Of a stretch of 64,000 nt of DNA, positions 33,047 to 46,851 are shown piece after piece. Under the pieces are notes generated by a model. That model was given only the letters and a program-made list of their open reading frames with translations, was not told the origin of the DNA and did no database searches. Origin of the DNA: Oceanibaculum nanhaiense. Its GTDB lineage: Bacteria; Pseudomonadota; Alphaproteobacteria; Oceanibaculales; Oceanibaculaceae. The stretch's first letter is position 1, and every line of letters begins with the position of its first letter. The DNA lies in the NCBI RefSeq assembly GCF_002148795.1, contig NZ_MPOB01000004.1, forward strand, positions 310,001-374,000. The letters run 5' to 3'. A program made the translations under genes and the position numbers.

Positions 33047-33869
33047 GATGGTGATGATGCCCGTGCGGGTGATCGCTGGCCGCCTGCTCGACAGTGCTGT
33101 CCTCGTGCAGCGGCACCACGCCGCCGCCCGGCGTGTGGTGATGGTCGTGATGATGCTGATAGACCGCCAGCGCCTGCGCCGCCCTCGGTCCGAACAGCGA
33201 CAGATAGGCGGGGTCGCGGCTGACATCCTCGGGATGGCCGGTGCAGCAGATATGGCCGTTCAGGCAGATCACCCGGTCGGTCGCCGCCATGACGAGATGC
33301 AGATCGTGCGACACCATCAGCACGGCGCAGCCGCGGTCGCGCCTGATCCGGCCGATCAGCTCGTACAGCTCGACCTGGCCATTGACGTCCACGCCCTGTG
33401 CCGGTTCGTCCAGCATCAGCAGGTCCGGCTGGTTCAGCAGGGCGCGGGCCAGCAGCGCGCGCTGGGTCTCGCCACCGGACAGGCCCTGCATCGGCCGGTC
33501 GGCCAGATGCGCGATGCCGGTGTCCTGCATCGCCTGCCGGCGGGCGGCGGCGTTTGCATTGCGCGACAATCCCAGAAACCGCTCCAGCGTGATCGGCAAT
33601 GTCGGGTCGATGGCAAGGCGCTGCGGCATATAGCCGATGCGCAGGCTGGGGCGGCGCGTCACACTGCCGTCCTGTACGGCGATGAGACCCAGCAAGGCGC
33701 GCAGCAATGTCGTCTTGCCGGAGCCGTTGGGGCCGATAATGCAGACGATCTCGCCAGCACTCAGCGTGAGGTCCACATGGTCGAGCACCGGAACGTCGCC
33801 GCGCCGGACGGTGATGCTGCTGGCCTCGATCAGCGCGGGGAGGGCGGCAGCGGAAGAGTCAGCCTGCAT
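33039..33869 (-). CDS. znuC: zinc ABC transporter ATPase ZnuC with His-rich tail
   Basis: A 276-aa ABC ATPase. Walker A is GPNGSGKT, signature LSGGETQR, Walker B LLMLDEP, and the switch histidine is in VSHDLHLV. After the normal ATPase end the protein carries a 40-residue tail with 14 histidines (QHHHDHHHTP ... DHPHGHHHHHG), a likely cytoplasmic zinc-binding segment. The start overlaps the zur stop. An ATG nine bases earlier (33878) is an equal candidate. Driven from the Zur box at 34444. Confidence 0.92.
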   Translation of the reverse strand: MQADSSAAALPALIEASSITVRRGDVPVLDHVDLTLSAGEIVCIIGPNGSGKTTLLRALLGLIAVQDGSVTRRPSLRIGYMPQRLAIDPTLPITLERFLGLSRNANAAARRQAMQDTGIAHLADRPMQGLSGGETQRALLARALLNQPDLLMLDEPAQGVDVNGQVELYELIGRIRRDRGCAVLMVSHDLHLVMAATDRVICLNGHICCTGHPEDVSRDPAYLSLFGPRAAQALAVYQHHHDHHHTPGGGVVPLHEDSTVEQAASDHPHGHHHHHG

Positions 33870-34416
33870 GGTTGGCATTGCATTTCGGGCACAGGCCGGA
33901 AACCTCGACGGTGATCCGCTCGATGGTGAAGCCAATCTTGCGGGCATGTTCGCCGATGGCGCGCCGGATCGCCGGATCGTCGATCTCCGCCGCGTTGCCG
34001 CATTGCGTGCAGATCAGGAACTGGCCGTTATGCTCGCTGTCAGGGTGCGGGCAGCCGACATAGGCGTTCATCGATTCGATACGGTGGACCAGCCGGTGCT
34101 TCAGCAGGAAATCCAGCGCGCGATAGACCGTGGGCGGGGCTGCCGGGCGGCCATCCTCGCCGGCGCTGTCCTCGCGCTGCAGTTTCGCCAACACATCATA
34201 GGCACCGATGGGTTCATGGCTGCGCCAGACCAGCTCCAGCACCTGCCGGCGTAGCGGCGTCAGCCGGGCATTGCGCCCGGCGCAGATATCCTCGGCAGCG
34301 GCCAGCGCCTGATCCACGCAATGCGCATGATCGTGCCGTTCCGACGGGAAAAGGGCCGGGAGGCCTGCATTCTCTGCGGTTTTCGTTGCAGCAATCATGG
34401 ATTTCGTTTCCGTCAT
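33859..34416 (-). CDS. zur: zinc uptake regulator Zur (Fur family)
   Basis: A 185-aa Fur-family repressor. The winged-helix part includes RLTPLRRQVLELVWRSHEPIGAYDVL and PPTVYRALDFLLKHRLVHRIE (recognition helix in TVYRALDFL). The dimer domain has HPDSEHNGQFLICTQCG and SGLCPKCN, whose two CxxC pairs form the structural zinc site. An N-terminal HDHAHC stretch may add metal ligands. The ATG at 34416 is chosen over a GTG at 34434. It lies 28 bp from the Zur box and heads the zur-znuC-znuB operon. Confidence 0.92.
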   Translation of the reverse strand: MTETKSMIAATKTAENAGLPALFPSERHDHAHCVDQALAAAEDICAGRNARLTPLRRQVLELVWRSHEPIGAYDVLAKLQREDSAGEDGRPAAPPTVYRALDFLLKHRLVHRIESMNAYVGCPHPDSEHNGQFLICTQCGNAAEIDDPAIRRAIGEHARKIGFTIERITVEVSGLCPKCNANHAG

Positions 34417-34443
34417 CCGGATTTCCCGTTGCACTGTTCGGTA

Positions 34444-34460
34444 ATGTTACTTTATAACAT
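34444..34460. promoter_or_regulatory. Zur box between zur and znuA
   Basis: ATGTTA-CTTTA-TAACAT, a perfect six-base palindrome with a five-base centre. It matches the proteobacterial Zur consensus ATGTTATA-N-TATAACAT at 15 of the 16 defined bases or nearly so, in the only intergenic space between the two zinc operons. With zinc bound, Zur would sit here and shut both directions. Confidence 0.85.
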
Positions 34461-34521
34461 CACCTGATTTTCGAGTCGATAGCGGCTCATCATGCCGGTT
34501 TCGTGCATTAGGAGCATTCCC

Positions 34522-35514
34522 ATGTCCGCTTGTCACGCTTTGAGGCGTCCCCTGCATCTGCTTGCCGGTGCGGGTCTGCTGCTGTTCGCCGCGCTCGGTT
34601 CCGCGCAGGCGCAGCCGGCGCCGAAGGTTTTCGTCACGGTGAAGCCGGTGCATGCGCTGGTCGCCGGCGTGATGCAAGGGGTGGGAGAACCTTACCTGCT
34701 GCTGAAGGGCGGCGAATCTCCGCACAGCTACACGCTGAAACCCTCGGACGCGCGTGCCCTGTCCGAATCGGCGCTGGTGTTCTGGGTTGGCGAGTCGCTG
34801 GAGACCTTCCTGGAGCATCCGCTGGAAACGCTGGGCAAGCAGGCGCGCATCGTCGAGCTGGCCGAGGCGAAGGGCATTGAGACGCTGGAAGGCCGGGAAG
34901 GCGGCGCCTGGGAATCGCATGAGGCAGCGCATGACCACGACAAGAAACATGATCATTCGCACGACAAGAAACACGCGCACGCCGCGCATGATGGGATCGA
35001 CGGCCATCTCTGGCTCGACCCGCACAATGCCGAGGCCATCGTGACCGTGGCGGCCGAGGCGCTGGCCGGGATTGATCCGGCCAATGCGGCGGCCTATCGC
35101 GACAATGCGCAGAAAATGGTCGAGCGGATCGAGGCGCTGGATGCGGAGCTGACGGCGCAGCTGGCGCCGGTGAAGGACCGGCCCTACATCGTGTTCCACG
35201 ATGCCTATCAGTATTTCGAGGCGCATTACGGGCTGAAGGCGGTGGGGTCCATCACCCTGTCGCCGGAGCGCCAGCCGAGCGCGCAGCGTCTGACCGAAAT
35301 CCGCAAGCGGCTGGCTGACAGCGGTGCGGCCTGCGTGTTCTCCGAGCCGCAGTTTCGGCCGGCGCTGGTCGATGTGGTGATCGAAGGCAGCACGGCAAAG
35401 CGCGGCGAACTTGACCCCATAGGTGCCGCCCTGAAGGCGGGGCCGGATTCCTATTTCGAGGTGATGCGCGGGCTGGCCACTTCGTTGCGCAACTGCCTGA
35501 TGCCGCAAAGCTGA
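34522..35514 (+). CDS. znuA: zinc ABC transporter periplasmic binding protein ZnuA
   Basis: A 330-aa cluster A-I binding protein with a Sec signal (cleavage near AQAQP, residue 31). Zinc ligands include H in GGESPHSYTLKPSD, H in GHLWLDPHNA and H in YIVFHDAYQYFE. A His/Asp/Lys-rich loop (HDHDKKHDHSHDKKHAHAAH) around residues 130-150 is the mobile metal-collecting loop of ZnuA. The ATG at 34522 has AGGAG nine bases upstream. It is the first gene of the plus-strand arm. Confidence 0.94.
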   Translation: MSACHALRRPLHLLAGAGLLLFAALGSAQAQPAPKVFVTVKPVHALVAGVMQGVGEPYLLLKGGESPHSYTLKPSDARALSESALVFWVGESLETFLEHPLETLGKQARIVELAEAKGIETLEGREGGAWESHEAAHDHDKKHDHSHDKKHAHAAHDGIDGHLWLDPHNAEAIVTVAAEALAGIDPANAAAYRDNAQKMVERIEALDAELTAQLAPVKDRPYIVFHDAYQYFEAHYGLKAVGSITLSPERQPSAQRLTEIRKRLADSGAACVFSEPQFRPALVDVVIEGSTAKRGELDPIGAALKAGPDSYFEVMRGLATSLRNCLMPQS

Positions 35515-35587
35515 AGCGGTTTGGCCACTGGAATGTCGCTGCGGGACGGCCTATTTTAAAGCCAGCTGCCCGTTGCAAGGACACATC

Positions 35588-35893
35588 ATGCTCAGCCGAC
35601 GCCGCCTTCTGGAAACCAGCATGCTCACTGCCGTCGCGGCGCTTGTGCCGGGCTTTCTTGCCGGACGGGCCTACGCTTTCAGCGTGGAGCCGGCACCGGT
35701 ACCGGTGCAGCAGCTCCGCTTGCAGGCCTGCACCGAGCAGCAGCGCCACAAGCAGCTGGTCGAGGAGGTGCTGGCGAAGCTCGATACAGCGGGCCAGTCC
35801 CTGCCGGAGCCAGAACGGCAAAGCCTGATGGCGGCCTTCGATTGCCCCTATTGCGGCTGCCGTCTGGACCCCAAATTCCCACCCATCGGCTGA
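35588..35893 (+). CDS. secreted 101-aa protein with a CPYCGC motif, in the zinc locus
   Basis: A small protein with a possible Tat-type signal (SRRRLLETSM at 3-12, hydrophobic 13-30, GRAYA before the cut). The mature part is helical (QLVEEVLAKL) and ends with C86-P-Y-C89-G-C91, plus C48 upstream. The three clustered cysteines could bind zinc or take part in thiol chemistry. It lies 73 bp after znuA and four bases before the DUF1007 gene, so a zinc-related job is inferred. No known family was recognised. Confidence 0.68.
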   Translation: MLSRRRLLETSMLTAVAALVPGFLAGRAYAFSVEPAPVPVQQLRLQACTEQQRHKQLVEEVLAKLDTAGQSLPEPERQSLMAAFDCPYCGCRLDPKFPPIG

Positions 35894-35897
35894 CGCC

Positions 35898-36500
35898 ATG
35901 AAAGGGCTGGCAAGTTTCCTGCTGGCGCTGGCTCTCCTGGCCACAGGACTGCCGCGCACCGCCGATGCCCATCCGCATGTCTGGATCGATACCCATGCGA
36001 CGCTGCGCTTCGATGCCGGCAAGCTGGTTGCCCTCGATGTCGTCTGGGTGTTCGACGATTTCTTCAGCTCGATGATGATCGAGGATTTCGCGGCGAAGGG
36101 GGGTAAGGATTTCACGCCGGAAGGGCATGGAGAGCTGGAAAGCCAGGTCATGCTGCCGATGGAGGAGTTCGGTTTCTTTACCCATCTCACAGCCGACGGC
36201 GCGGCGCTGAAGATCGAGAAGATCGCGAATTTCAAGGCCAGCATCGAGGATGGGCGGGTGATCTTCGCCTTCCGGGCGCTGTTGCCCCAGGCCGTCGATC
36301 CGCGCGTCACAGCGCTGTCGGTCGGGCTCTATGACGAAAGCTATTATGTCGAACTGCTCCTGGATGAGTGGGATCCGTTCCGTCTTGCGGGCGATGCGGT
36401 GCCCGCCTGCGCCATCGACATGACGGAGGATATGAGCCGCCCGCTCTATTACGGCGCCTTCTTTCCGCGCGTTGCCACGCTGCGCTGCACCGGGAGCTGA
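35898..36500 (+). CDS. DUF1007 family periplasmic protein
   Basis: A 200-aa protein with a Sec signal (MKGLASFLLALALLATGLPR then TADA). The mature N terminus HPHVWIDTHATLRFD is the DUF1007 hallmark; a free N-terminal His-Pro-His after cleavage could bind metal. WVFDDFFSSMMIEDF and FVGFFTHL-like (EFGFFTHLTADG) segments follow. DUF1007 genes often sit beside NicO permeases, as here, where the next gene starts five bases later. A role in metal handling is inferred. Confidence 0.85.
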   Translation: MKGLASFLLALALLATGLPRTADAHPHVWIDTHATLRFDAGKLVALDVVWVFDDFFSSMMIEDFAAKGGKDFTPEGHGELESQVMLPMEEFGFFTHLTADGAALKIEKIANFKASIEDGRVIFAFRALLPQAVDPRVTALSVGLYDESYYVELLLDEWDPFRLAGDAVPACAIDMTEDMSRPLYYGAFFPRVATLRCTGS

Positions 36501-37570: not shown

Positions 37571-38278
37571 ATGAAACGCCTTCTTGCCGCCGCTGCCATC
37601 TTTCTGGCTGCGACCACTGTCGCGCGCGCCGAACCCATGGTTGAGCGCATCGATTTCGAGGTGACGCGCGGCGGCGATCCGCTGGGCTGGCAGCGTTTGC
37701 GCATTGCACGCGATGGCGACCGGGCCATTGTCGAGGTGATGATCGACTTCGAACTGAAATTCGGCCCCATTGCGCTGTACCGCTACACCCATCGCAACCG
37801 CACGGTGCTCGAGGCCGGCAAGGTGGTGAGCGTCGAGACCCGGACCAATGATGATGGCGATTATTACGCCGTCCTTGCCCGGCAGGGGGAAGGGGCTGGA
37901 GAGGGCGGTCTGACCGTCCTGGGTGTCGATGGCCGGATCATGGCGCCGACGGATATCTTCCCCTCGGATTACTGGCGCTATGCGACTGTCCGCCAGGGCC
38001 GTCTGCTGGACACGCAGAAGGGTATTCTGCGCGATGTCGAGATGACTGCGGTGGCCGGACGCGAGGGCTGTTACGATATGACCGGCGAGTTGACCATGCA
38101 GCTCTGCTACGATGACGGGCGCTGGGTCGGCGGCAGCTTCGACGGGCGTGGCAAGGAAGTGCTCTATACCCGCCGGGAGATGCCCGCCGATGCGCCCTGG
38201 AATTTCAGCCTGGAAGATGTGCCGGCGGGCGAGCCCGCCAGCCGTTATGTGATGATGGCCCAGAATGAACAGCGATAA
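37571..38278 (+). CDS. DUF6134 family secreted protein
   Basis: A 235-aa protein with a Sec signal (MKRLLAAAAIFLAATTVARA). The mature part is beta-rich: DFEVTRGGDPLGWQRLRIAR, YRYTHRNRTVLEAGKVVSVE and GRIMAPTDIFPSDYW resemble the DUF6134 family of periplasmic or outer-membrane-associated proteins with a YceI-like look. The function is unknown. Its last 14 bases overlap the SDR gene, so it forms an operon with the SDR and NTF2-like genes, facing the stress/lipid operon. Confidence 0.72.
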   Translation: MKRLLAAAAIFLAATTVARAEPMVERIDFEVTRGGDPLGWQRLRIARDGDRAIVEVMIDFELKFGPIALYRYTHRNRTVLEAGKVVSVETRTNDDGDYYAVLARQGEGAGEGGLTVLGVDGRIMAPTDIFPSDYWRYATVRQGRLLDTQKGILRDVEMTAVAGREGCYDMTGELTMQLCYDDGRWVGGSFDGRGKEVLYTRREMPADAPWNFSLEDVPAGEPASRYVMMAQNEQR

Positions 38279-39032
38279 ACCTGGCGGCCGGCTGGTCTGG
38301 ATCACCGGCGCCAGCTACGGGCTGGGCCGTGAAGTCGCCCTGCAGCTTGCCGCGCGTGGCGACCGGGTGGCGGTCAGCGCGCGCTCGGCGGACAAGCTGA
38401 AGGCGCTGGCGGGGGAAGCGCCGGAAGGGTGCATCCTGCCCTACGAACTGGACGTCACCGACCGGCAGGCGGTTGCCGATACCGTCGCCCGCATCGAGGC
38501 GGAGCAGGGCCCTATCGACCTGGCGCTGCTGAATGCCGGCACGCATGAGCCTATCAGCGCCGGCGATTTCAACGTCGATACGGTGCGCACGCTCGTCGAG
38601 CTGAACCTGATGGGGACGGCAAACTGCCTAGAGCCGTTGCTCTCCCGTTTCAGGGCGCGCGGGCAGGGGCACATCGCCATCGTCGCCTCGGTCGCCGGCT
38701 ATCGCGGGCTGCCGACCTCTGCCGCCTATGGGGCGACCAAGGCCGGGCTCATCAATATGGCGGAATCGCTGAAGCCGGAATGCGACCGGCTGGGAATAAA
38801 GCTGCAGATCGTCAATCCCGGCTTCGTGCGCACGCCGCTGACCGACAAAAATCCGTTTCCCATGCCATTCCTGATGGAACCGGAGGATGCGGCCGCTGCG
38901 CTGATTCGCGGTCTGGACGGGAACGGTTTCGAGGTCAGCTTTCCGAAGCGTTTCACCTGGATGCTGAAATTCCTGCGCTGCCTGCCCTATGCTCTGTATT
39001 TCCCGATGATCAGCCGGGCGACCAAGCAGTGA
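38265..39032 (+). CDS. short-chain dehydrogenase/reductase (SDR)
   Basis: A 255-aa classical SDR. The Rossmann motif is TGASYGLG (about 15-22), followed by NAG, a catalytic serine in VASVAGYRG and the YxxxK pair in SAAYGATKAG. The C terminus is hydrophobic (FLRCLPYALYFPMI), suggesting membrane contact. It uses NAD(P)H to reduce or oxidise an unknown alcohol or ketone. SDRs like this recur beside CFA-like/DUF1365/FAD oxidase genes. Its stop overlaps the GTG start of the next gene. Confidence 0.87.
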   Translation: MNSDKPGGRLVWITGASYGLGREVALQLAARGDRVAVSARSADKLKALAGEAPEGCILPYELDVTDRQAVADTVARIEAEQGPIDLALLNAGTHEPISAGDFNVDTVRTLVELNLMGTANCLEPLLSRFRARGQGHIAIVASVAGYRGLPTSAAYGATKAGLINMAESLKPECDRLGIKLQIVNPGFVRTPLTDKNPFPMPFLMEPEDAAAALIRGLDGNGFEVSFPKRFTWMLKFLRCLPYALYFPMISRATKQ

Positions 39033-39455: not shown

Positions 39456-40016
39456 TCACTCCGCCGCCAGGGAGGCGCTCTGCTTGCCGTTCTCGCGCAG
39501 GAAGAACAGGGTCACCTCGCCCAGCTCGATGCCGAACTTGCTGACCGTGGCGCGGTTTACCATCACCTTCTCGTCCTGGCGGAACATCCAGTCGTCGAAA
39601 TGCACGCGGATCGTGCGTTCACCCACCTTCAGGTCGAAATCGTAACGCCAGTTCAGCGCCTTGCCGTAGGCGATGCCGGTTGCGGTGCCGACCACATCAT
39701 CGGCCCTTCCTTCATAGCGGTGCTCGTCCAGCTTGCGGATGCGCCAGACGCGGCGGTCGGTCTCGCCATCATCATAGAGGAAATCCTCGGTGAGGACGAA
39801 CTCGTCGCCTTCCTGCCGGCCTTCGATATCGACCGTGAAGCTGCGCTTCAGCGTGCCGAACCGGTCCTGGAAAATGCCCCAGGCGCGGCTCTTGCCGATG
39901 AAATACTCCTCGACGGTCAGCTTCGGCTCGGAGCCGGCGAAATCCTCAGGCTTCATGGTGCTGCATCCTCCCAGCAGAAGAGCGGCAGCCAGTAGCGTCG
40001 CTGCGGCGCGGAACAT
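39456..40016 (-). CDS. DUF3833 family lipoprotein
   Basis: A 186-aa lipoprotein: MFRAAATLLAAALLLGGCST gives a lipobox LLGGC with cysteine at 18. The mature part (KLTVEEYFIGKSRAWGIFQD, FLYDDGETDRRVWRIRKLD, GTATGIAYGKALNWRYDFDL) is the DUF3833 family, with a lipocalin-like beta-barrel look. Residue +2 is S, so the protein should reach the outer membrane. It is the last gene of the operon behind the 46280-46308 promoter. The gene family travels with CFA-like and DUF1365 genes in many Proteobacteria. Confidence 0.86.
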   Translation of the reverse strand: MFRAAATLLAAALLLGGCSTMKPEDFAGSEPKLTVEEYFIGKSRAWGIFQDRFGTLKRSFTVDIEGRQEGDEFVLTEDFLYDDGETDRRVWRIRKLDEHRYEGRADDVVGTATGIAYGKALNWRYDFDLKVGERTIRVHFDDWMFRQDEKVMVNRATVSKFGIELGEVTLFFLRENGKQSASLAAE

Positions 40017-40043: not shown

Positions 40044-41375
40044 TCATGGCACGGTCTCGATCCGGCGTTTCACCGCCGCATGCTCGGCTGCGCCGATCGG
40101 ATAGCCCCACATCAGCGCGATGGCGGCCAGCTTGAACAGGATCGGGGCAATGGCGTAGAGCGCGGCCAGGGTTGTCAGCGCGGCCGGGTCGTTCACGCTG
40201 CCGCTCGCCGCCTGAAAGCCGAACAGGTCGAGGATCGGGAAAGCGATGCCCACGGCCAGCGCCAGCGCCAGCTTCGTCGCCACGCCCCACAGCGCGAAAT
40301 ACAGGCCGGCGCGGTGCGCCCCGCTCTCGGCCGTGTCGATATCCACCACATCGGCCTGCATCGAGGGCGGCAGGGCGAGATCGGCACCCAGGCACAGGCC
40401 GGTCAGCACGCAGATCGCCAGGAACCCCGCCATGTCGCCCGCACCCAGAAAGGGCACCGGCGCGAAGAACAGGCAGTTCAGCAGCATCGCCATACACCAG
40501 GCGCGGTGCTTCTCCAGCTTGCGGCTGGCCGCGATCCAAACTGGTATGGAGAGAATGCCGCATCCGAAATACACCGTCAGGAACAGGCCGCTCAATTCGC
40601 CCAGTTGAAGCACCTGGGCCGCGAATAAAAGTACAAGTGTTGCCGGCAGGCCGTTTGCGATGCCATTCAGCAGATAGGCCACGATCAGCCGGCGGAAGGG
40701 TCTGTTCGCGGCCAGCACCCTGATTGCCAGCCTCCAGTTACTTGTACGCGGCGCGGGGCGCGGCGGTTCACCCACGGCGGCACAGGCCAGAAGGATGGTC
40801 AGCGGCAGGGCGATCAGCAGGGTGAGAGCAAGCACCTTGAGCACAGCGGCGTTGCCGCCCTCGACCAGCGCCGGCAGGCCGGCGGCGATCAGTGTTCCCA
40901 GCACGACGAACAGCTCGCGCGAGGCGGTGATGCGGGAACGTTCATGATAATCGGGCGACAGCTCCGCCCCCCAGGCGGAATGCGGCAGGGAGATCATCGT
41001 CCAGCCGAGATAGAGCAGCATCGACCAGCCCAGCAGATGCGCGATGCCGGCACCCTGCGGCGGCACGAACAGCATCCACATGGCGAGCAGCGTGACCGGC
41101 AGGCCGGCGATCATCCAGGGACGGCGGCGGCCCCATCGGCTGACGGTGCGGTCGCTGAGCACGCCGATCGCCGGGTCGGTTACCCCATCCCACAGCCGGG
41201 CCAGCAGCAGCACCGCGCCCACCGCCGTGAGGTTCAGCCCCAGATCGGCGGCGTAGAAGGTCGGCAGGTAGATGAACAGCGGCAATCCCAGCGCCGCCAT
41301 CGGCAGGCCGGGCAGACCATAGGCGGCCAGCAGCCGGCGCGCGAGGGGCCGATGATCGGGGAGGGATTGCTCCAT
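40044..41375 (-). CDS. MFS transporter of the GPH (glycoside-pentoside-hexuronide) family
   Basis: A 443-aa membrane protein with about twelve segments. LLLARLWDGVTDPAIGVLSDRT and RWGRRRPWMIAGLP are the first-half GPH signatures (LWDGVTDP, GRRRPW), and SLPHSAWGAELSPDYHERSR follows. The second half includes ADLALPPSMQADVVDIDTAES, close to the MelB/GPH pattern (QADVVD). In this locus the cargo is more likely a lipid or lipid precursor than sugar. It lies three bases downstream of the CFA-like gene. Confidence 0.86.
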   Translation of the reverse strand: MEQSLPDHRPLARRLLAAYGLPGLPMAALGLPLFIYLPTFYAADLGLNLTAVGAVLLLARLWDGVTDPAIGVLSDRTVSRWGRRRPWMIAGLPVTLLAMWMLFVPPQGAGIAHLLGWSMLLYLGWTMISLPHSAWGAELSPDYHERSRITASRELFVVLGTLIAAGLPALVEGGNAAVLKVLALTLLIALPLTILLACAAVGEPPRPAPRTSNWRLAIRVLAANRPFRRLIVAYLLNGIANGLPATLVLLFAAQVLQLGELSGLFLTVYFGCGILSIPVWIAASRKLEKHRAWCMAMLLNCLFFAPVPFLGAGDMAGFLAICVLTGLCLGADLALPPSMQADVVDIDTAESGAHRAGLYFALWGVATKLALALAVGIAFPILDLFGFQAASGSVNDPAALTTLAALYAIAPILFKLAAIALMWGYPIGAAEHAAVKRRIETVP

Positions 41376-41378
41376 GCG

Positions 41379-42620
41379 CTAGCGTTTGAAGGCGATCTGG
41401 CGCACGTCGATGCTGCCGGACCGGAACCCGCCCTCGCAATAGTGCAGATAGAATTCCCACATGCGCTGGAAACGCTCGTCGAAGCCCAGTTCACGGATGT
41501 CCGGCCAGGCGGTCTTGAAGGCGTCGCTCCAGTGGCGCAGCGTACGGGCATAATCCAGCCCGAAGCCGTCATCCTGGGTCAGCACCATGCCGGCATCGCG
41601 CACCAGCCCGCGCAGGATGCTGTCTGACGGCAGCATGCCGCCGGGAAAGATATAGCGCTGGATGAAGTCGGGGGAGCTGCGATAGGCCTCGAACCGGTCG
41701 TCGGCGATGGTGATGACCTGCATCGCCGCCCTGCCATCCTCCTTGAGGCAGGATTTCACCTTGTCGAAGAAGACCGGCCAGTAACGTTCGCCCACCGCCT
41801 CGAACATTTCAATGGAGGCGATGCGGTCGTAGCGTTCCGCCACATCGCGGTAATCCTGCAGGCGCAGTTCCACGCGGTCGGAAAGGCCGGCGCGGGCCAT
41901 CCGCTCGGTGGCGTAGGCATGCTGCTCTTGCGACAGGGTGATGCCGGTGACCTTCAGGCCGAACTCGCCGGCCGCCATTTCCGCGAACCCGCCCCAGCCG
42001 CAGCCGATCTCCAGCACATGCTGGCCGGGTTTGGCGTCCAGCAGGGTGCAGATGCGACGGTACTTGGCACGCTGGGCGGCTTCCAGATCCTGCTGGCCGC
42101 TCTCGAACACCGCCGCGGAATAGGTCATCGAAGGGTCGAGCCAGCGCCGGTAGAACTCATTCCCCAGATCGTAGTGATAGGCGATGTTGCGCTGGCTGCC
42201 GCGCCGGTTGTTGCGGTTCAGCGCGTGCAGCGCGCGGCCGGCCAGGCGGCTCCACCAATTGCCGTCAATATGCTGTTCCAGCGCGGTGATGTTGGCGGAG
42301 AACAGCTCCACCACCCGGGCGGGATCGGGGCTGTCCCATTCGCCATCGAGGTAGGATTCCGACCAGCCGACGCTGCCGCCCATGAACCAGCGCCGCGCCA
42401 TGCGCTGGTCACGCACCAGGATGGTTGCCTCCGGCCCGTCATGCGGGCTGTCGAAACGGAACCGCCTGCCGTCCGGCAGCACGACGATCAGCGTGCCGTG
42501 GCTGAGGTTGCGCAGCATCTTCAGGCCAAGCCACATCCAGCGTGTCAGGCTGCGGTCCGGGCGGCGCCGTGTCTGGGCGATCCAGGTGCGGCCATCGATG
42601 GTCAGGGTCGCGTCGCTCAC
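41379..42620 (-). CDS. CFA-synthase-like SAM methyltransferase, lacking two bicarbonate ligands
   Basis: A 413-aa protein with the N-terminal lipid-handling domain and a C-terminal SAM methyltransferase of the cyclopropane fatty acid synthase family. The SAM site is VLEIGCGWGGFAE (202-214); YHYDLGNEFYRRWLDPSMTY and QRYIFPGGMLPSD are also conserved. Against E. coli Cfa, E239, I268, Y317 and C354 match E274, I303, Y357 and C395, but C139 becomes A169 and H266 becomes Q301. Those two hold the bicarbonate base. The enzyme may therefore methylate an unsaturated acyl chain without closing the ring, as UfaM does in furan fatty acid synthesis. Overlaps DUF1365 by four bases. Confidence 0.85.
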   Translation of the reverse strand: MSDATLTIDGRTWIAQTRRRPDRSLTRWMWLGLKMLRNLSHGTLIVVLPDGRRFRFDSPHDGPEATILVRDQRMARRWFMGGSVGWSESYLDGEWDSPDPARVVELFSANITALEQHIDGNWWSRLAGRALHALNRNNRRGSQRNIAYHYDLGNEFYRRWLDPSMTYSAAVFESGQQDLEAAQRAKYRRICTLLDAKPGQHVLEIGCGWGGFAEMAAGEFGLKVTGITLSQEQHAYATERMARAGLSDRVELRLQDYRDVAERYDRIASIEMFEAVGERYWPVFFDKVKSCLKEDGRAAMQVITIADDRFEAYRSSPDFIQRYIFPGGMLPSDSILRGLVRDAGMVLTQDDGFGLDYARTLRHWSDAFKTAWPDIRELGFDERFQRMWEFYLHYCEGGFRSGSIDVRQIAFKR

Positions 42621-43459
42621 TTGTCATGTCTCCCGTTTGCGAGGGCGGGGTCGGACCAGATCGAAACTTCTTCCAGGGGCGGCGTGGGGCGGGAATGGAA
42701 CCGCGCGCCCTTGCGCCACAGACGCAGCGCCTCCCAATGGATGCCGGCGACCACTTTCAGGGTCATCAGCGGGTGGCGGGCGAAGGCACTCAGAAGCGTG
42801 GCGTCGGTAAGTGCCGCACGCTGCGCATTGTGGGTGGCGGCCAGCAGCGGCTTTCCGTCGGGGCCAGCCTCGTCCTGGCGGATCAGGATGGACAGGCTCT
42901 CGTCCGGCTCGTTCAGCCGGAAGCGGTAGCGGCATTCCATCGGCAGGAAGGGCGAGACATAGAAGCCCTTGTCGTGGCGCTGCAGGATCGGTGCGCCGGG
43001 CTGCCGGCCCGCTGGGACGGGCAGCAGATAGCCATGCTGCTGGCCGAAGGTGTTCTTCACCTCGTAGAGGATCGCCGCCAGCCGGTCCTGGCGGTCGCGG
43101 CAGTAATAGATCGACAGCGGATTGAAGGCGAAGCCCATGAGGCGCGGAAAGCAGAGCAGCGAGATTCGTCCGCCATCAATATCGATGCCGGCGGCGGCCA
43201 GATGGTGCTCGACCCAGGGGCGTAGCGCGCTGCCGTCGCGCGGGCCATGGTCGCGGTCATGGAAGCTGAGCAGATTCGCGCGATTGTAGGAGAACAGCCG
43301 CAGCCCGGCATCGAGCACCGGCAACTCGTCCAGATCGACCAGCAGCGAGAAGACCCGGTAATGGAATTTGTGCCGGAACGGCGTCAGCCGGCTGTGCGTC
43401 ACCCGCCCGCGATAGAGGCAGGATTTCCAGGCCGTATCTGGCGTCATCTGGTTGTTCAT
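42617..43459 (-). CDS. DUF1365 family protein
   Basis: A 280-aa cytoplasmic protein. KSCLYRGRVTHSRLTPFRHK at the start, RLFSYNRANLLSFHDRDHGPRDG, and GFAFNPLSIYYCRDRQDRLA are the DUF1365 blocks (cores FRHKFHYRVF, FHDRDHG, FNPLSIYYC). The His/Asp cluster could hold metal, but no activity is proven to my knowledge beyond links to lipid modification loci. Its ATG overlaps the upstream FAD oxidase stop (TGATG) and its end overlaps the CFA-like gene, so the three are translated as a block. Confidence 0.88.
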   Translation of the reverse strand: MNNQMTPDTAWKSCLYRGRVTHSRLTPFRHKFHYRVFSLLVDLDELPVLDAGLRLFSYNRANLLSFHDRDHGPRDGSALRPWVEHHLAAAGIDIDGGRISLLCFPRLMGFAFNPLSIYYCRDRQDRLAAILYEVKNTFGQQHGYLLPVPAGRQPGAPILQRHDKGFYVSPFLPMECRYRFRLNEPDESLSILIRQDEAGPDGKPLLAATHNAQRAALTDATLLSAFARHPLMTLKVVAGIHWEALRLWRKGARFHSRPTPPLEEVSIWSDPALANGRHDK

Positions 43460-44775
43460 CAGTCGCCTGCCAGCAGCGGTTTGGCAGCGGTTGCGGGCTG
43501 ACCGGCGGGCTTCACGTCGGTCTGCCACGGCACATCGGCACCCAGCGCCAATGCGACGGCAATGCCCGATTTTAACCCATCTTCGTGGAAACCGTAACCG
43601 CCCCAGGCGCCGCAGAACCAAAGGCCGCGCGTCCCCTGGATATGGTTCATCTCCTTCTGTGCCTGTATGGCCGGACCGTCGAATACCGGATGGCTGTAGG
43701 ATATCCGCGCGAAAACCTTTGCCGGATCGGGCTGGCGGATCGGGTTCAGCGTGACAAACAGCGGATGGGCGGGATCGATGCCCTGCAGCAGGTTCATCCA
43801 GTAGGTGACGGCCACCTCGCGGTCATAGGCCTCGCCCTCGGCCAGATAGTTCCAGCTCGACCAGACAGCGCGGCGCTTCGGCATCAGGGCAGGATCGCAG
43901 TGTAGCACCGCCTCGTTCGGCTGGTAGCGACACCGGCCCATAATGTCGCGCTCGGCGGCGTCGGAATCCTGCAGCAGAGCCAGCGACTGGTCGGCATGGC
44001 AGGCCAGGATCACCTGGTCGTACAGCGTTTCCTCGCCGTCGGAACCGCGTACCATCACGCCGCCGGGCACGCGCCGTACCGATACCGCCGCATTGCCGAG
44101 GCGGAACCGGTCGGCGAAGGGGGATGTCAGGCGCCGCACATATTCACGGCTGCCGCCGGTGACCGTCATCCATTGCGGCCGGTCATTCACCGACATCAGA
44201 CCGTGATTGTGAAAGAAGCGCGCGAAGCTGGCGGCCGGGAACTCCAGCATGGTCTCCACCGGGCAGGACCAGATGGCGGCGGCCATCGGCAGCAGATGGT
44301 CGTACAGGAAGCCGTCGGAATAGCGGTTGCGCTTCAGATACTCACCCAGCGACAGCGTGCCGGGATCGCCCTCCAGCAGCGCCGGCGCTTCACGGAAGAA
44401 GCGCAGAATGTCATGGACCATGCGGCCGAAGCGCGGGCGCAGCAGGTTGCGCTTCTGCGCGAAAAGCTGCGGGATACTGCCGCCGCCATATTCCAGGCGT
44501 CCGTCATCGATAGAAACGGCGAAGGACATCTCGCTGTTCTGATAGGGCACGTCGATCTGCCCGAACAGGCCGCGCAGGTTCGGGTAGTTGCGGTCGTTGA
44601 ACACGATGAAACCAGTATCGACCGGGATCGTCCGGCCGCCGACATCGGCCTCCACCGTATTGGCGTGGCCGCCGATCCGGTTTTCCTTCTCATAGATTGT
44701 GATCTCGTGCTGCTGGTGCAGCAGCCATGCGGCACCCATGCCGGAAATGCCGCTGCCGACGATCGCAAGTCTCAT
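43459..44775 (-). CDS. FAD-dependent amine-oxidase-like oxidoreductase
   Basis: A 438-aa flavoprotein starting MRLAIVGSGISGMGAAWLLH (GxGxxG) and YEKENRIGGHANTVEADVGG, then VDTGFIVFNDRNYPNLRGLF, the pattern of the NAD(P)-binding amine oxidase/desaturase-like group. The C terminus RGLWFCGAWGGYGFHEDGLKSG closes the flavin site (FCGAWGGYGFHEDG). These genes regularly accompany DUF1365 and CFA-like genes. A role in introducing a double bond in a methylated acyl chain is suggested by analogy with furan fatty acid synthesis. One base separates it from the photolyase gene. Confidence 0.87.
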   Translation of the reverse strand: MRLAIVGSGISGMGAAWLLHQQHEITIYEKENRIGGHANTVEADVGGRTIPVDTGFIVFNDRNYPNLRGLFGQIDVPYQNSEMSFAVSIDDGRLEYGGGSIPQLFAQKRNLLRPRFGRMVHDILRFFREAPALLEGDPGTLSLGEYLKRNRYSDGFLYDHLLPMAAAIWSCPVETMLEFPAASFARFFHNHGLMSVNDRPQWMTVTGGSREYVRRLTSPFADRFRLGNAAVSVRRVPGGVMVRGSDGEETLYDQVILACHADQSLALLQDSDAAERDIMGRCRYQPNEAVLHCDPALMPKRRAVWSSWNYLAEGEAYDREVAVTYWMNLLQGIDPAHPLFVTLNPIRQPDPAKVFARISYSHPVFDGPAIQAQKEMNHIQGTRGLWFCGAWGGYGFHEDGLKSGIAVALALGADVPWQTDVKPAGQPATAAKPLLAGD

Positions 44776-46236
44776 TCAGGCCGCTTTCTTGATGCGGGAG
44801 AAGGCGTCGAGCGCGCGGTCGCGCGCCGTGCCGTGATCCACGATGGGGGTGGGGTAGGTCTCGCCGAGCGTCACGCCGGCCTGACGCATCACATCGTCGG
44901 GGGCGAGCCAGGGCTTGTGGATATGGGAGGCCGGCATTTTCGCCAGCTCCGGCACCCAGCGCCGGACATAGGCGCCGTCCGGGTCGAATTTCTCGCCCTG
45001 CAGCACCGGGTTGAAGATGCGGAAATAGGGTGCCGCATCCGCGCCGCAGCCGGCGACCCATTGCCAGCTTGCGGCATTGTTGGCGAGATCGGCATCGACC
45101 AGCGTGTCCCAGAACCAGGCCTCGCCTTCCTGCCAGGGGATCAGCAGATCCTTCACCAGGAAGGAGGCGACGATCATGCGCACCCGGTTGTGCATCCAGC
45201 CGGTCGCCCACAGCTCCCGCATGCCGGCATCGACGATGGGGAAGCCAGTGCGGCCGCGCTGCCAGGCGGCCAGCGCGTCGCCGTTCTCGTGCCAGGGGAA
45301 GTCCGCGAATTCCGGGCGCAACGGATGATCCGGCAGGGTGTCGTTGTGATAGAGCAGGTGATGGGCGAATTCGCGCCAGCCAACCTCGGACAGGAATTTC
45401 TCGGCGCTGGCCTCGTTAAGGTCGTGAGCGGCAATGTCGGCGCGGGTCGCGTGCCAGATCTGGCGGGGGCCGATCTCGCCGAAATGCAGATGTGGCGACA
45501 GCCGCGAGGTCGCCTCGATATCCGGCCGGTCGCGTTCTGCCTTGTAGCGGTTCACCGCAGCGTCGAGAAAGCCGGTCAGCCGGTCGCGCGCGCCAGCCTC
45601 GCCGGGTGTCCATGCGGCCTCGAAGCTCCTGGCCCAGTTCGGTGCGGTGGGCAGCAGCGCCCAATCCGCCAGCCTGTCGCCTTGGGGCGCAGGGGCAGGT
45701 GTGGATTCCAGTGCTTCCGGGGTGGGCAGCGGCGCTTCCGGTCCGTCCTTGGCAAGACAGGCGCGCCAGAAGGCGGAATAGACGCGGAACGGCTCGCCGG
45801 CCTTGTTCTCGACGGTCCAGGGTTCGTGCAGCAGGGCCGAATTGAAGCTGCGCGCCGCGATCCCATCGCGTTTCAGCGCGGCCTTGATGGTCTCGTCCCG
45901 CTTGCGGGCGAATGGCTCGTAGCAGCGGTTCCAGTACACCGCCGCAGCACCGGTTTCGCTGACGAGATCGGAGATGATCTGCCGTGAATCGCCGCACCGC
46001 AGGACAAGCGGCAGGCCCAGCGCGTCAAGGTCGCGGGACAGCGCCGTCAGGCTGTGGTGCAGCCACCAGCGTGCAGCATCGCCGGTCCGCCAGGTGCCGG
46101 GCGTCTCATCATCCAGGATATAGACGGGCAGGACCGGCTGGCCGCTGGCCATGGCCGCGCACAGCGCCGGATTATCTGCAAGACGCAGATCCTGGCGAAA
46201 CCAGAGGAGAACGGGCCTATCGCTGTCTCGTGCCAT
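44776..46236 (-). CDS. phrB: deoxyribodipyrimidine photolyase
   Basis: A 486-aa class I photolyase/cryptochrome. The N-terminal antenna domain begins VLLWFRQDLRLADNPALCAA. The FAD domain has LHFGEIGPRQIWHA, GWREFAHHLLYHND, FPIVDAGMRELWATGWMHNR and NNAASWQWVAGCGADAAPYF, with the tryptophans expected for electron transfer. It repairs UV cyclobutane dimers using light. The ATG at 46236 leaves about 37 bases from the predicted transcription start; an ATG at 46263 would leave about ten. First gene of the operon. Confidence 0.92.
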   Translation of the reverse strand: MARDSDRPVLLWFRQDLRLADNPALCAAMASGQPVLPVYILDDETPGTWRTGDAARWWLHHSLTALSRDLDALGLPLVLRCGDSRQIISDLVSETGAAAVYWNRCYEPFARKRDETIKAALKRDGIAARSFNSALLHEPWTVENKAGEPFRVYSAFWRACLAKDGPEAPLPTPEALESTPAPAPQGDRLADWALLPTAPNWARSFEAAWTPGEAGARDRLTGFLDAAVNRYKAERDRPDIEATSRLSPHLHFGEIGPRQIWHATRADIAAHDLNEASAEKFLSEVGWREFAHHLLYHNDTLPDHPLRPEFADFPWHENGDALAAWQRGRTGFPIVDAGMRELWATGWMHNRVRMIVASFLVKDLLIPWQEGEAWFWDTLVDADLANNAASWQWVAGCGADAAPYFRIFNPVLQGEKFDPDGAYVRRWVPELAKMPASHIHKPWLAPDDVMRQAGVTLGETYPTPIVDHGTARDRALDAFSRIKKAA

Positions 46237-46279
46237 CTTGCTTGCTGTAAAATCTTCGATCATCTTGGAATTCTGTAAG

Positions 46280-46308
46280 TTTTACGTACCGCGCCGGGCG
46301 GCGGATCA
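46280..46308 (-). promoter_or_regulatory. RpoE/ChrR-type (singlet oxygen) sigma-E promoter
   Basis: On the minus strand TGATCC (46303-46308) is followed after exactly 18 bp by TAAAA (46280-46284). This matches the alphaproteobacterial RpoE (ECF11) consensus TGATCC-N18-TAA, and it sits right before the photolyase gene, a known member of that regulon in Rhodobacter sphaeroides. Transcription would start near 46273. Confidence 0.8.
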
Positions 46309-46452: not shown

Positions 46453-46851
46453 ATGGCCAAGCCCAAGATTCTCGACCGTCGGGTGTTTTATGCCGGCGCG
46501 CTGCTGTTCCGGGAGGGTGAGCTGGGCAGTCACGCCTACCTCATCGAATCCGGCCGGGTGGAAGTCTTTGTCGGCCGCAACGAGGCGGAGACGGTGCTGG
46601 CCGATCTCGGTCCCGGCGAGATCATCGGCGAGATGGCGCTGATCGCCAAGGGGCCGCGCCAGGCCTCGGTGCGGGCGCTGGAACTCACCGTCTGCTCGAC
46701 GATCAACGAGCAGGTCATGGATCGGCTGCTGGAAAGCTGCGAGCCGGGCGTGAAGGCGCTGCTGAAAGTACTGATGAAGCGGCTCTACGCCACCAACATG
46801 ATGCTGGCCGACCATCTGCACCGCGATGCCGAAATGGGGCGCTGGAACTAG
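46453..46851 (+). CDS. single-domain cyclic-nucleotide-binding protein
   Basis: A 132-aa protein holding one Crp-type cNMP-binding barrel: FYAGALLFREGELGSHAYLIESG, GRVEVFVG, and DLGPGEIIGEMALIAKGPRQASVRAL (phosphate cassette GEIIGEMALIAKGPRQASV with the expected E and R). No DNA-binding domain follows, only a helix (VLMKRLYATNMMLADHLHRD). It may bind cAMP/cGMP or be a degenerate regulator acting on a partner. It is divergent from the photolyase operon across 190 bp, and its end overlaps the facing AraC gene by four bases. Confidence 0.82.
   Translation: MAKPKILDRRVFYAGALLFREGELGSHAYLIESGRVEVFVGRNEAETVLADLGPGEIIGEMALIAKGPRQASVRALELTVCSTINEQVMDRLLESCEPGVKALLKVLMKRLYATNMMLADHLHRDAEMGRWN

Follow-up and report, generated by a model that had tools for sequence, protein, structure and literature searches.

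A predicted UfaM-type methyltransferase in a single-operon furan fatty acid locus of Oceanibaculum nanhaiense

The analysed window is a stretch of 64,000 nucleotides from Oceanibaculum nanhaiense. An open reading frame check identified a 413-aa CFA-type ORF with a GTG start on the minus strand (here named ufaM, Table 1), and its product matched the CMAS profile PF02353 with an E-value of 8e-91. The profile search of the window further showed that the gene lies in a minus-strand operon with the order phr-ufaD-ufaO-ufaM-MFS-DUF3833, in which starts and stops touch or overlap (TGAATG, TGATG and GTGA). The true start of phr may be the ATG at 46236. A gene for a cyclic-nucleotide-binding domain protein (46453-46851, plus strand) is divergent from the photolyase operon. 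Elsewhere in the window (33859-36500), a Fur-family-like regulator gene adjoins a gene for a histidine-rich metal-binding-protein-like product, a pair that, judged by eye, is probably concerned with zinc uptake.

Table 1. Features of the ufa region, with positions counted from the first nucleotide of the window.
Feature	Position	Strand	Remark
Predicted sigma-E/ChrR (ECF11)-type promoter, TGATCC-N18-TAAAA (= TGATCC-N16-CGTAAA)	46280..46308	-	upstream of phr
phr, DNA photolyase	44776..46263	-	opens the operon; 46% identity with the photolyase adjoining R. sphaeroides ufaM
ufaD, putative FAD amine-oxidase-family fatty-acyl desaturase	43459..44775	-	assigned by family and position only
ufaO, DUF1365 protein (PF07103), putative furan-forming step	42617..43459	-	ATG shares 1 base with the ufaD stop
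ufaM, SAM-dependent fatty-acyl-phospholipid methyltransferase, CMAS family	41379..42620	-	GTG start shares 4 bp (GTGA) with the ufaO stop
Ala169 codon (E. coli Cfa Cys139 position)	42114..42116	-	from alignment
Glu271 codon (Gly236 position)	41808..41810	-	invariant among UfaM-type proteins
Glu274 codon (Glu239 position, retained)	41799..41801	-	from alignment
Ala275 codon (His240 position)	41796..41798	-	invariant among UfaM-type proteins
Gln301 codon (His266 position)	41718..41720	-	from alignment
MFS_2/GPH-type transporter	40044..41375	-	RSP1089 counterpart, 33% identity
DUF3833 protein	39456..40016	-	RSP1088 counterpart, 33% over 75 aa
Short-chain dehydrogenase, convergent	38265..39032	+	likely RSP1087 counterpart by family and place

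The region upstream of phr was searched for promoters of the sigma-E/ChrR type. The strict pattern TGATC-N17-19-TAAGA gave no match, and a pattern with a relaxed -10 element (TAARA) gave one site in the window, where 0.02 were expected, and three in the whole genome. The core of this site, TGATCC-N16-CGTAAAA, was identical in four Oceanibaculum genomes (L211, L212, L213 and L203), with differing spacers. The same core, with TAAGA, precedes phrA of R. sphaeroides, and the promoters of Shewanella RpoE2 follow the same layout (PMC4336711). At L204:4836-6256 on contig C5, the host genome also carries a ChrR anti-sigma factor gene (TIGR02451, above the curated cut-off) behind a gene for an ECF sigma factor; near this rpoE a similar relaxed pattern had no match, and a looser pattern had three, on the other strand only. 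Furan fatty acid genes belong to the core sigma-E/ChrR regulon (PMC6852236), and we infer that the ufa operon is under sigma-E/ChrR control, through which singlet-oxygen stress would turn it on.

The identity of the methyltransferase was addressed by comparison with characterised enzymes. It was 50% identical to the UfaM of a genome (L198), with near certainty that of R. sphaeroides 2.4.1, and both proteins lay inside one UfaM clade with a support of 100/100. The roles of ufaM, ufaD and ufaO have been established genetically and biochemically (Lemke 2020, PMC7380195). Read at the positions of E. coli Cfa, whose numbering is used below, the R. sphaeroides protein (SMTYSSALF, SIEMFEAVGE, LQIITV) has the same E/E/A/Q/I/Y signature as the window protein, and has Ser at 139. 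Next to R. sphaeroides ufaM lies a photolyase gene that has a sigma-E promoter, and phrA (RSP_2143) and RSP_2144 belong to the RpoE regulon (PMC7074977). The window UfaO was 40% identical to R. sphaeroides UfaO, at whose locus the counterparts of UfaO, the MFS transporter and the DUF3833 protein occur in the same order (40%, 33% and 33%). Judging from the locus numbers RPA2569-2571, the order ufaM-ufaO-ufaD probably also occurs in R. palustris, and O. pacificum has a gene 84% identical to the window ufaM. Its sequence identifies the window protein as UfaM, which catalyses the first step of furan fatty acid synthesis in bacteria. As an enzyme it is typical of a family already known, and what is added is the complete Oceanibaculum furan locus.

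The linkage of the three genes was examined among the loci gathered in the searches described below, most of which carry a flank of only ∼1.5 kb, limiting the following counts. Genes for UfaO and UfaD were found near 71 of the 112 UfaM-type loci and, with 2 exceptions, lay directly upstream on the same strand; one further locus had UfaO only. Neither gene occurred near any of 28 Cfa-type loci. The short flanks, and the separation of ufaM from ufaD and ufaO in R. sphaeroides, explain part of the UfaM loci that lack these neighbours. Orthology and gene neighbourhood thus carry the proposal of the sequence-only reading that the enzyme is a fatty-acyl methyltransferase most likely giving a methylated alkene, and its suggestion that the neighbouring FAD enzyme performs the next step of the furan pathway agrees with the assignment of that enzyme, by family and gene position, as a putative UfaD. 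A methyltransferase of the BfaB/TmpB type, forming 10-methylene fatty acids with the help of a neighbouring reductase, is highly improbable. As in bfaAB (PMC7791843), a gene for a FAD enzyme does lie close by, but here the gene of the DUF1365 protein UfaO lies between the two, and the photolyase and sigma-E context is that of ufa genes, BfaB being compared by description and context alone. Moreover, the main unsaturated chain in alphaproteobacteria is cis-vaccenate.

The host genome contains two further Cfa-type paralogues, 38% and 34% identical to the window UfaM, both with the canonical Cys, Gly, His and His at 139, 236, 240 and 266. The window UfaM scored below the NCBIfam Cfa cut-offs (296.5 of 400 bits for NF008686, 283 of 600 for NF053839 and 245 of 650 for NF040703); one of the paralogues (L001) also fell narrowly short of its cut-off (588 of 600). 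On contig C10, a sigma-factor-like gene (L001:2901-3530) is divergent from a paralogous Cfa gene. That the window protein is instead a working cyclopropane synthase with an altered site is very unlikely. Such enzymes exist, as cotton synthases with Ser for Cys139 and a substituted His266 make cyclopropanes, but the window protein has the clade and signature of characterised UfaM, lies beside ufaD and ufaO, scores below the Cfa cut-offs, and its host already has two paralogues with a canonical site.

The active-site residues were assigned by aligning the window UfaM to E. coli Cfa, to which it is 38% identical, in two ways: with HMMER against 6BQC and with MAFFT together with Cfa of E. coli K-12. 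Both placed Ala169 at Cys139, Glu274 at Glu239, Gln301 at His266, Tyr357 at Tyr317 and Cys395 at Cys354. MAFFT also placed Ile303 at Ile268, and HMMER opened a gap of two residues right after Gln301, so that the assignment of Ile303 is slightly uncertain while that of Gln301 is firm. The two replacements and four retained residues listed in the sequence-only reading are therefore correct, with this reserve for Ile303, and the full alignment, checked for Cys and His at 139 and 266, had Ala and Gln there without ambiguity. Two further changes had been overlooked: the Cfa loop VGMFEHVG reads IEMFEAVG in the window protein, with Glu271 for Gly236 and Ala275 for His240. The earlier description of Cys139 and His266 as two lost bicarbonate-holding residues stands for His266, which with Glu239 and Tyr317 makes up the side-chain ligand set given for the E. 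coli enzyme, but not for Cys139, which is not among them (PMC11387697). This side-chain set is incomplete in the window UfaM, where His266 is Gln301. Two of the five bicarbonate contacts are made by backbone amides (PMC3132707). Cys354 is uninformative, as many ordinary Cfa proteins have Ser at that site. Since we take the contact of Cys139 to be one of the backbone amides, its side chain may be irrelevant to bicarbonate binding.

To place these changes in the family, relatives were drawn from the same class, from named genomes and, taking a Rhodobacter genome, from its genus and family, and Cfa-type genes were gathered by a second search with a Cfa paralogue as query. The scan of named genomes was biased towards the signature, one of its two patterns being the peptide EM[FL]EAVGE; the class search, for which the whole protein served as query, was free of this bias and agreed with the scan. 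Glu236, Glu239 and Gln266 were present in all 112 UfaM-type loci of the first set, and Glu236, Ala240 and Gln266 in 159 of 159 UfaM-type rows, a number slightly inflated by a few duplicate records of genomes that occur twice (e.g., L020/L041 and L161/L178). The canonical Cys139, Gly236, His240 and His266 were found in 38 of 40 Cfa-type rows, with mycobacterial MmaA1, MmaA4 and UmaA set aside. Because the changes are invariant on the UfaM side and the canonical set nearly so on the Cfa side, they are not due to chance. At position 139 the UfaM-type rows had Ser (135/159), Ala (23/159) or Cys (1/159, L103), so loss of Cys139 is not strict. The one exception, L103, is a betaproteobacterial UfaM adjoining ufaO and ufaD. 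In the tree UfaM formed a single clade apart from all Cfa proteins (support 100/100) with only one label change; as the signature arises once, UfaM represents one evolutionary event and not 159. A signature peculiar to the Oceanibaculum gene is ruled out by its spread over the whole clade and all 159 rows. A literature search on UfaM and bicarbonate, to which most subscription journals were out of reach, found no earlier report of the signature. Single sequences of interest include L137, a Cfa-type protein in which 236 and 240 are both Ala and Cys139 and His266 are retained, which offers a natural test of which position counts, and L143, a Cfa-type protein with His266 to Gln as the sole change among the watched positions. 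The UfaM-type gene L078 comes from a 4.8-kb contig that was binned as Verrucomicrobiota, and in the tree it was nested among Hyphomicrobiales, which reflects either transfer or a binning error.

The structure of the window UfaM was predicted with AlphaFold2 from 14 sequences. The model had a mean pLDDT of 85, and its top PDB matches were the Cfa structures 5z9o and 6bqc (TM 0.82-0.87, depending on the target). The predicted protein has the two-domain fold of the CMAS family with an N-terminal lipid domain. The strand holding Gln301 (292-305) was well predicted; the region near residue 169 was less certain, with block means of 55-73 across 111-170. A search of the PDB found no UfaM structure.

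Taken as a whole, the locus would encode a UfaM forming a methylated alkene, a UfaD forming a diene and a UfaO forming the furan, in a sigma-E/ChrR-induced operon, an account to which we give a probability of about 0.9. Family, orthology, operon and promoter rest on sequence, from which we infer product and regulation. UfaM would methylate a membrane fatty acid, as a cis-vaccenate 11-methyltransferase, and so begin the furan fatty acid pathway. The resulting cation would then lose a proton from C13 of the chain and not from the new methyl group, yielding 11-methyl-12-trans-18:1 and no cyclopropane; this loss is presumed for the window UfaM because 11-methyl-12-trans-18:1 is the published UfaM product (PMC7380195). 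UfaD would desaturate the methylated alkene to the 10,12-diene, and UfaO would insert oxygen, closing the furan ring.

How deprotonation is redirected is less certain. In Cfa, bound bicarbonate removes a proton from the transferred methyl group (PMC11387697). According to the sequence-only reading, the lost contacts of Cys139 and His266 would weaken or empty the bicarbonate site, so that the methyl proton is not taken and the reaction stops at the methylated alkene. We consider this unlikely. The replacements do exist and mark nearly all UfaM, Cfa activity falls when bicarbonate is removed or its ligands are mutated (PMC11387697), and MmaA4, which closes no ring, also has Gln at 266. However, loss of the two residues is not sufficient as a cause of the open-chain product, as cotton GhCPS1 and GhCPS2 lack both and still close the ring (PMC3132707), and it is not necessary, as MmaA1, UmaA and BfaB retain Cys139 and His266 or, as described for BfaB, the bicarbonate site and, as far as known, make no ring. 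Further, E. coli Cfa C139S retains 31% efficiency according to PMC3132707, Cys139 is present in L103 although it lies beside ufaO and ufaD, and a base is needed for the alkene product too.

Glu236 and Ala240 appear to be better candidates than Cys139 and His266 for deciding the product. In the alignment, Glu236 is common to UfaM, MmaA1 and MmaA4, and Ala240 to UfaM, MmaA1 and UmaA; as far as known, none of these four enzymes forms a ring. Crystals of MmaA4 show one water held by Glu146, Glu149 and Ser178 (PMC8708032), of which the glutamates align with 236 and 239 and Ser178 lies near 266-267. By analogy with this site and the sharing of Glu236 and Ala240, a re-placed base is likelier than a lost one. 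We tentatively suggest, at somewhat less than even chances, that the proton acceptor is not simply lost with Cys139 and His266: Glu271, together with Glu274 and possibly a water, would take its place, in space opened by Ala275. More tentatively still, UfaM may be distinguished by a gained catalytic group, Glu236 (with Ala240), that redirects deprotonation to the chain, and MmaA1 and UmaA may have reached the same type of product by overlapping changes (Glu236, Ala240) with Cys139 and His266 kept. The mycobacterial enzymes are closely related to each other and represent few independent events, and Glu236 and Ala240 may also occur in plant cyclopropane synthases.

The residue signature separates UfaM from genuine Cfa, a distinction that public annotation does not draw, and the locus adds a full single-operon furan fatty acid pathway in Oceanibaculum. 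If Glu236 is indeed the gained group, a read-out of positions 139, 236, 240 and 266 would sort UfaM among entries named 'cyclopropane-fatty-acyl-phospholipid synthase family protein'. Mutational work on ring closure versus double-bond shift in this enzyme family would be steered to Glu236 and Ala240 over Cys139 and His266.

Compared with known systems, the window protein most resembles UfaM (RSP2144 of R. sphaeroides, RPA2569 of R. palustris and YLGW01_00254 of Halomonas) in fold, full length and the E/E/A/Q/I/Y signature, the sequence comparison being made with R. sphaeroides alone. With the latter it shares the ufaD and ufaO partners, the photolyase neighbour and a sigma-E-type promoter motif, but it has Ala instead of Ser at 139, and its six genes form one operon; in R. 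sphaeroides, phrA-ufaM and RSP1091-1087 lie apart. With E. coli Cfa (6BQC) it shares the two-domain fold and Glu239, Ile268, Tyr317 and Cys354, and it differs by C139A, G236E, H240A and H266Q. MmaA1 (∼31% identical), whose reported product is a trans alkene with a vicinal methyl group, resembles it at 236 and 240, and UmaA at 240. UmaA has been assigned the same kind of product (PMC8708032). Unlike the window UfaM, both mycobacterial enzymes keep Cys139 and His266 in the alignment, lack the N-terminal lipid domain and act on mycolic acid precursors. MmaA4 (Hma) shares Glu236, Gln266 and the absence of ring closure, but keeps Cys139 and His240, has Ser at the Ile268 position and forms a hydroxyl product. 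BfaB, selected for its conserved Cfa bicarbonate site, yields 10-methylene acids (PMC7791843). Cotton GhCPS1 and GhCPS2 have a substituted His266 in common with UfaM (that of GhCPS2 is printed as I729, probably a misprint for Q729), Ser at 139 like most UfaM, and a fused N-terminal oxidase domain, a layout resembling a UfaD-UfaM fusion; unlike UfaM they yield cyclopropane fatty acids, whether in yeast, in tobacco cells or in Arabidopsis (PMC3132707).
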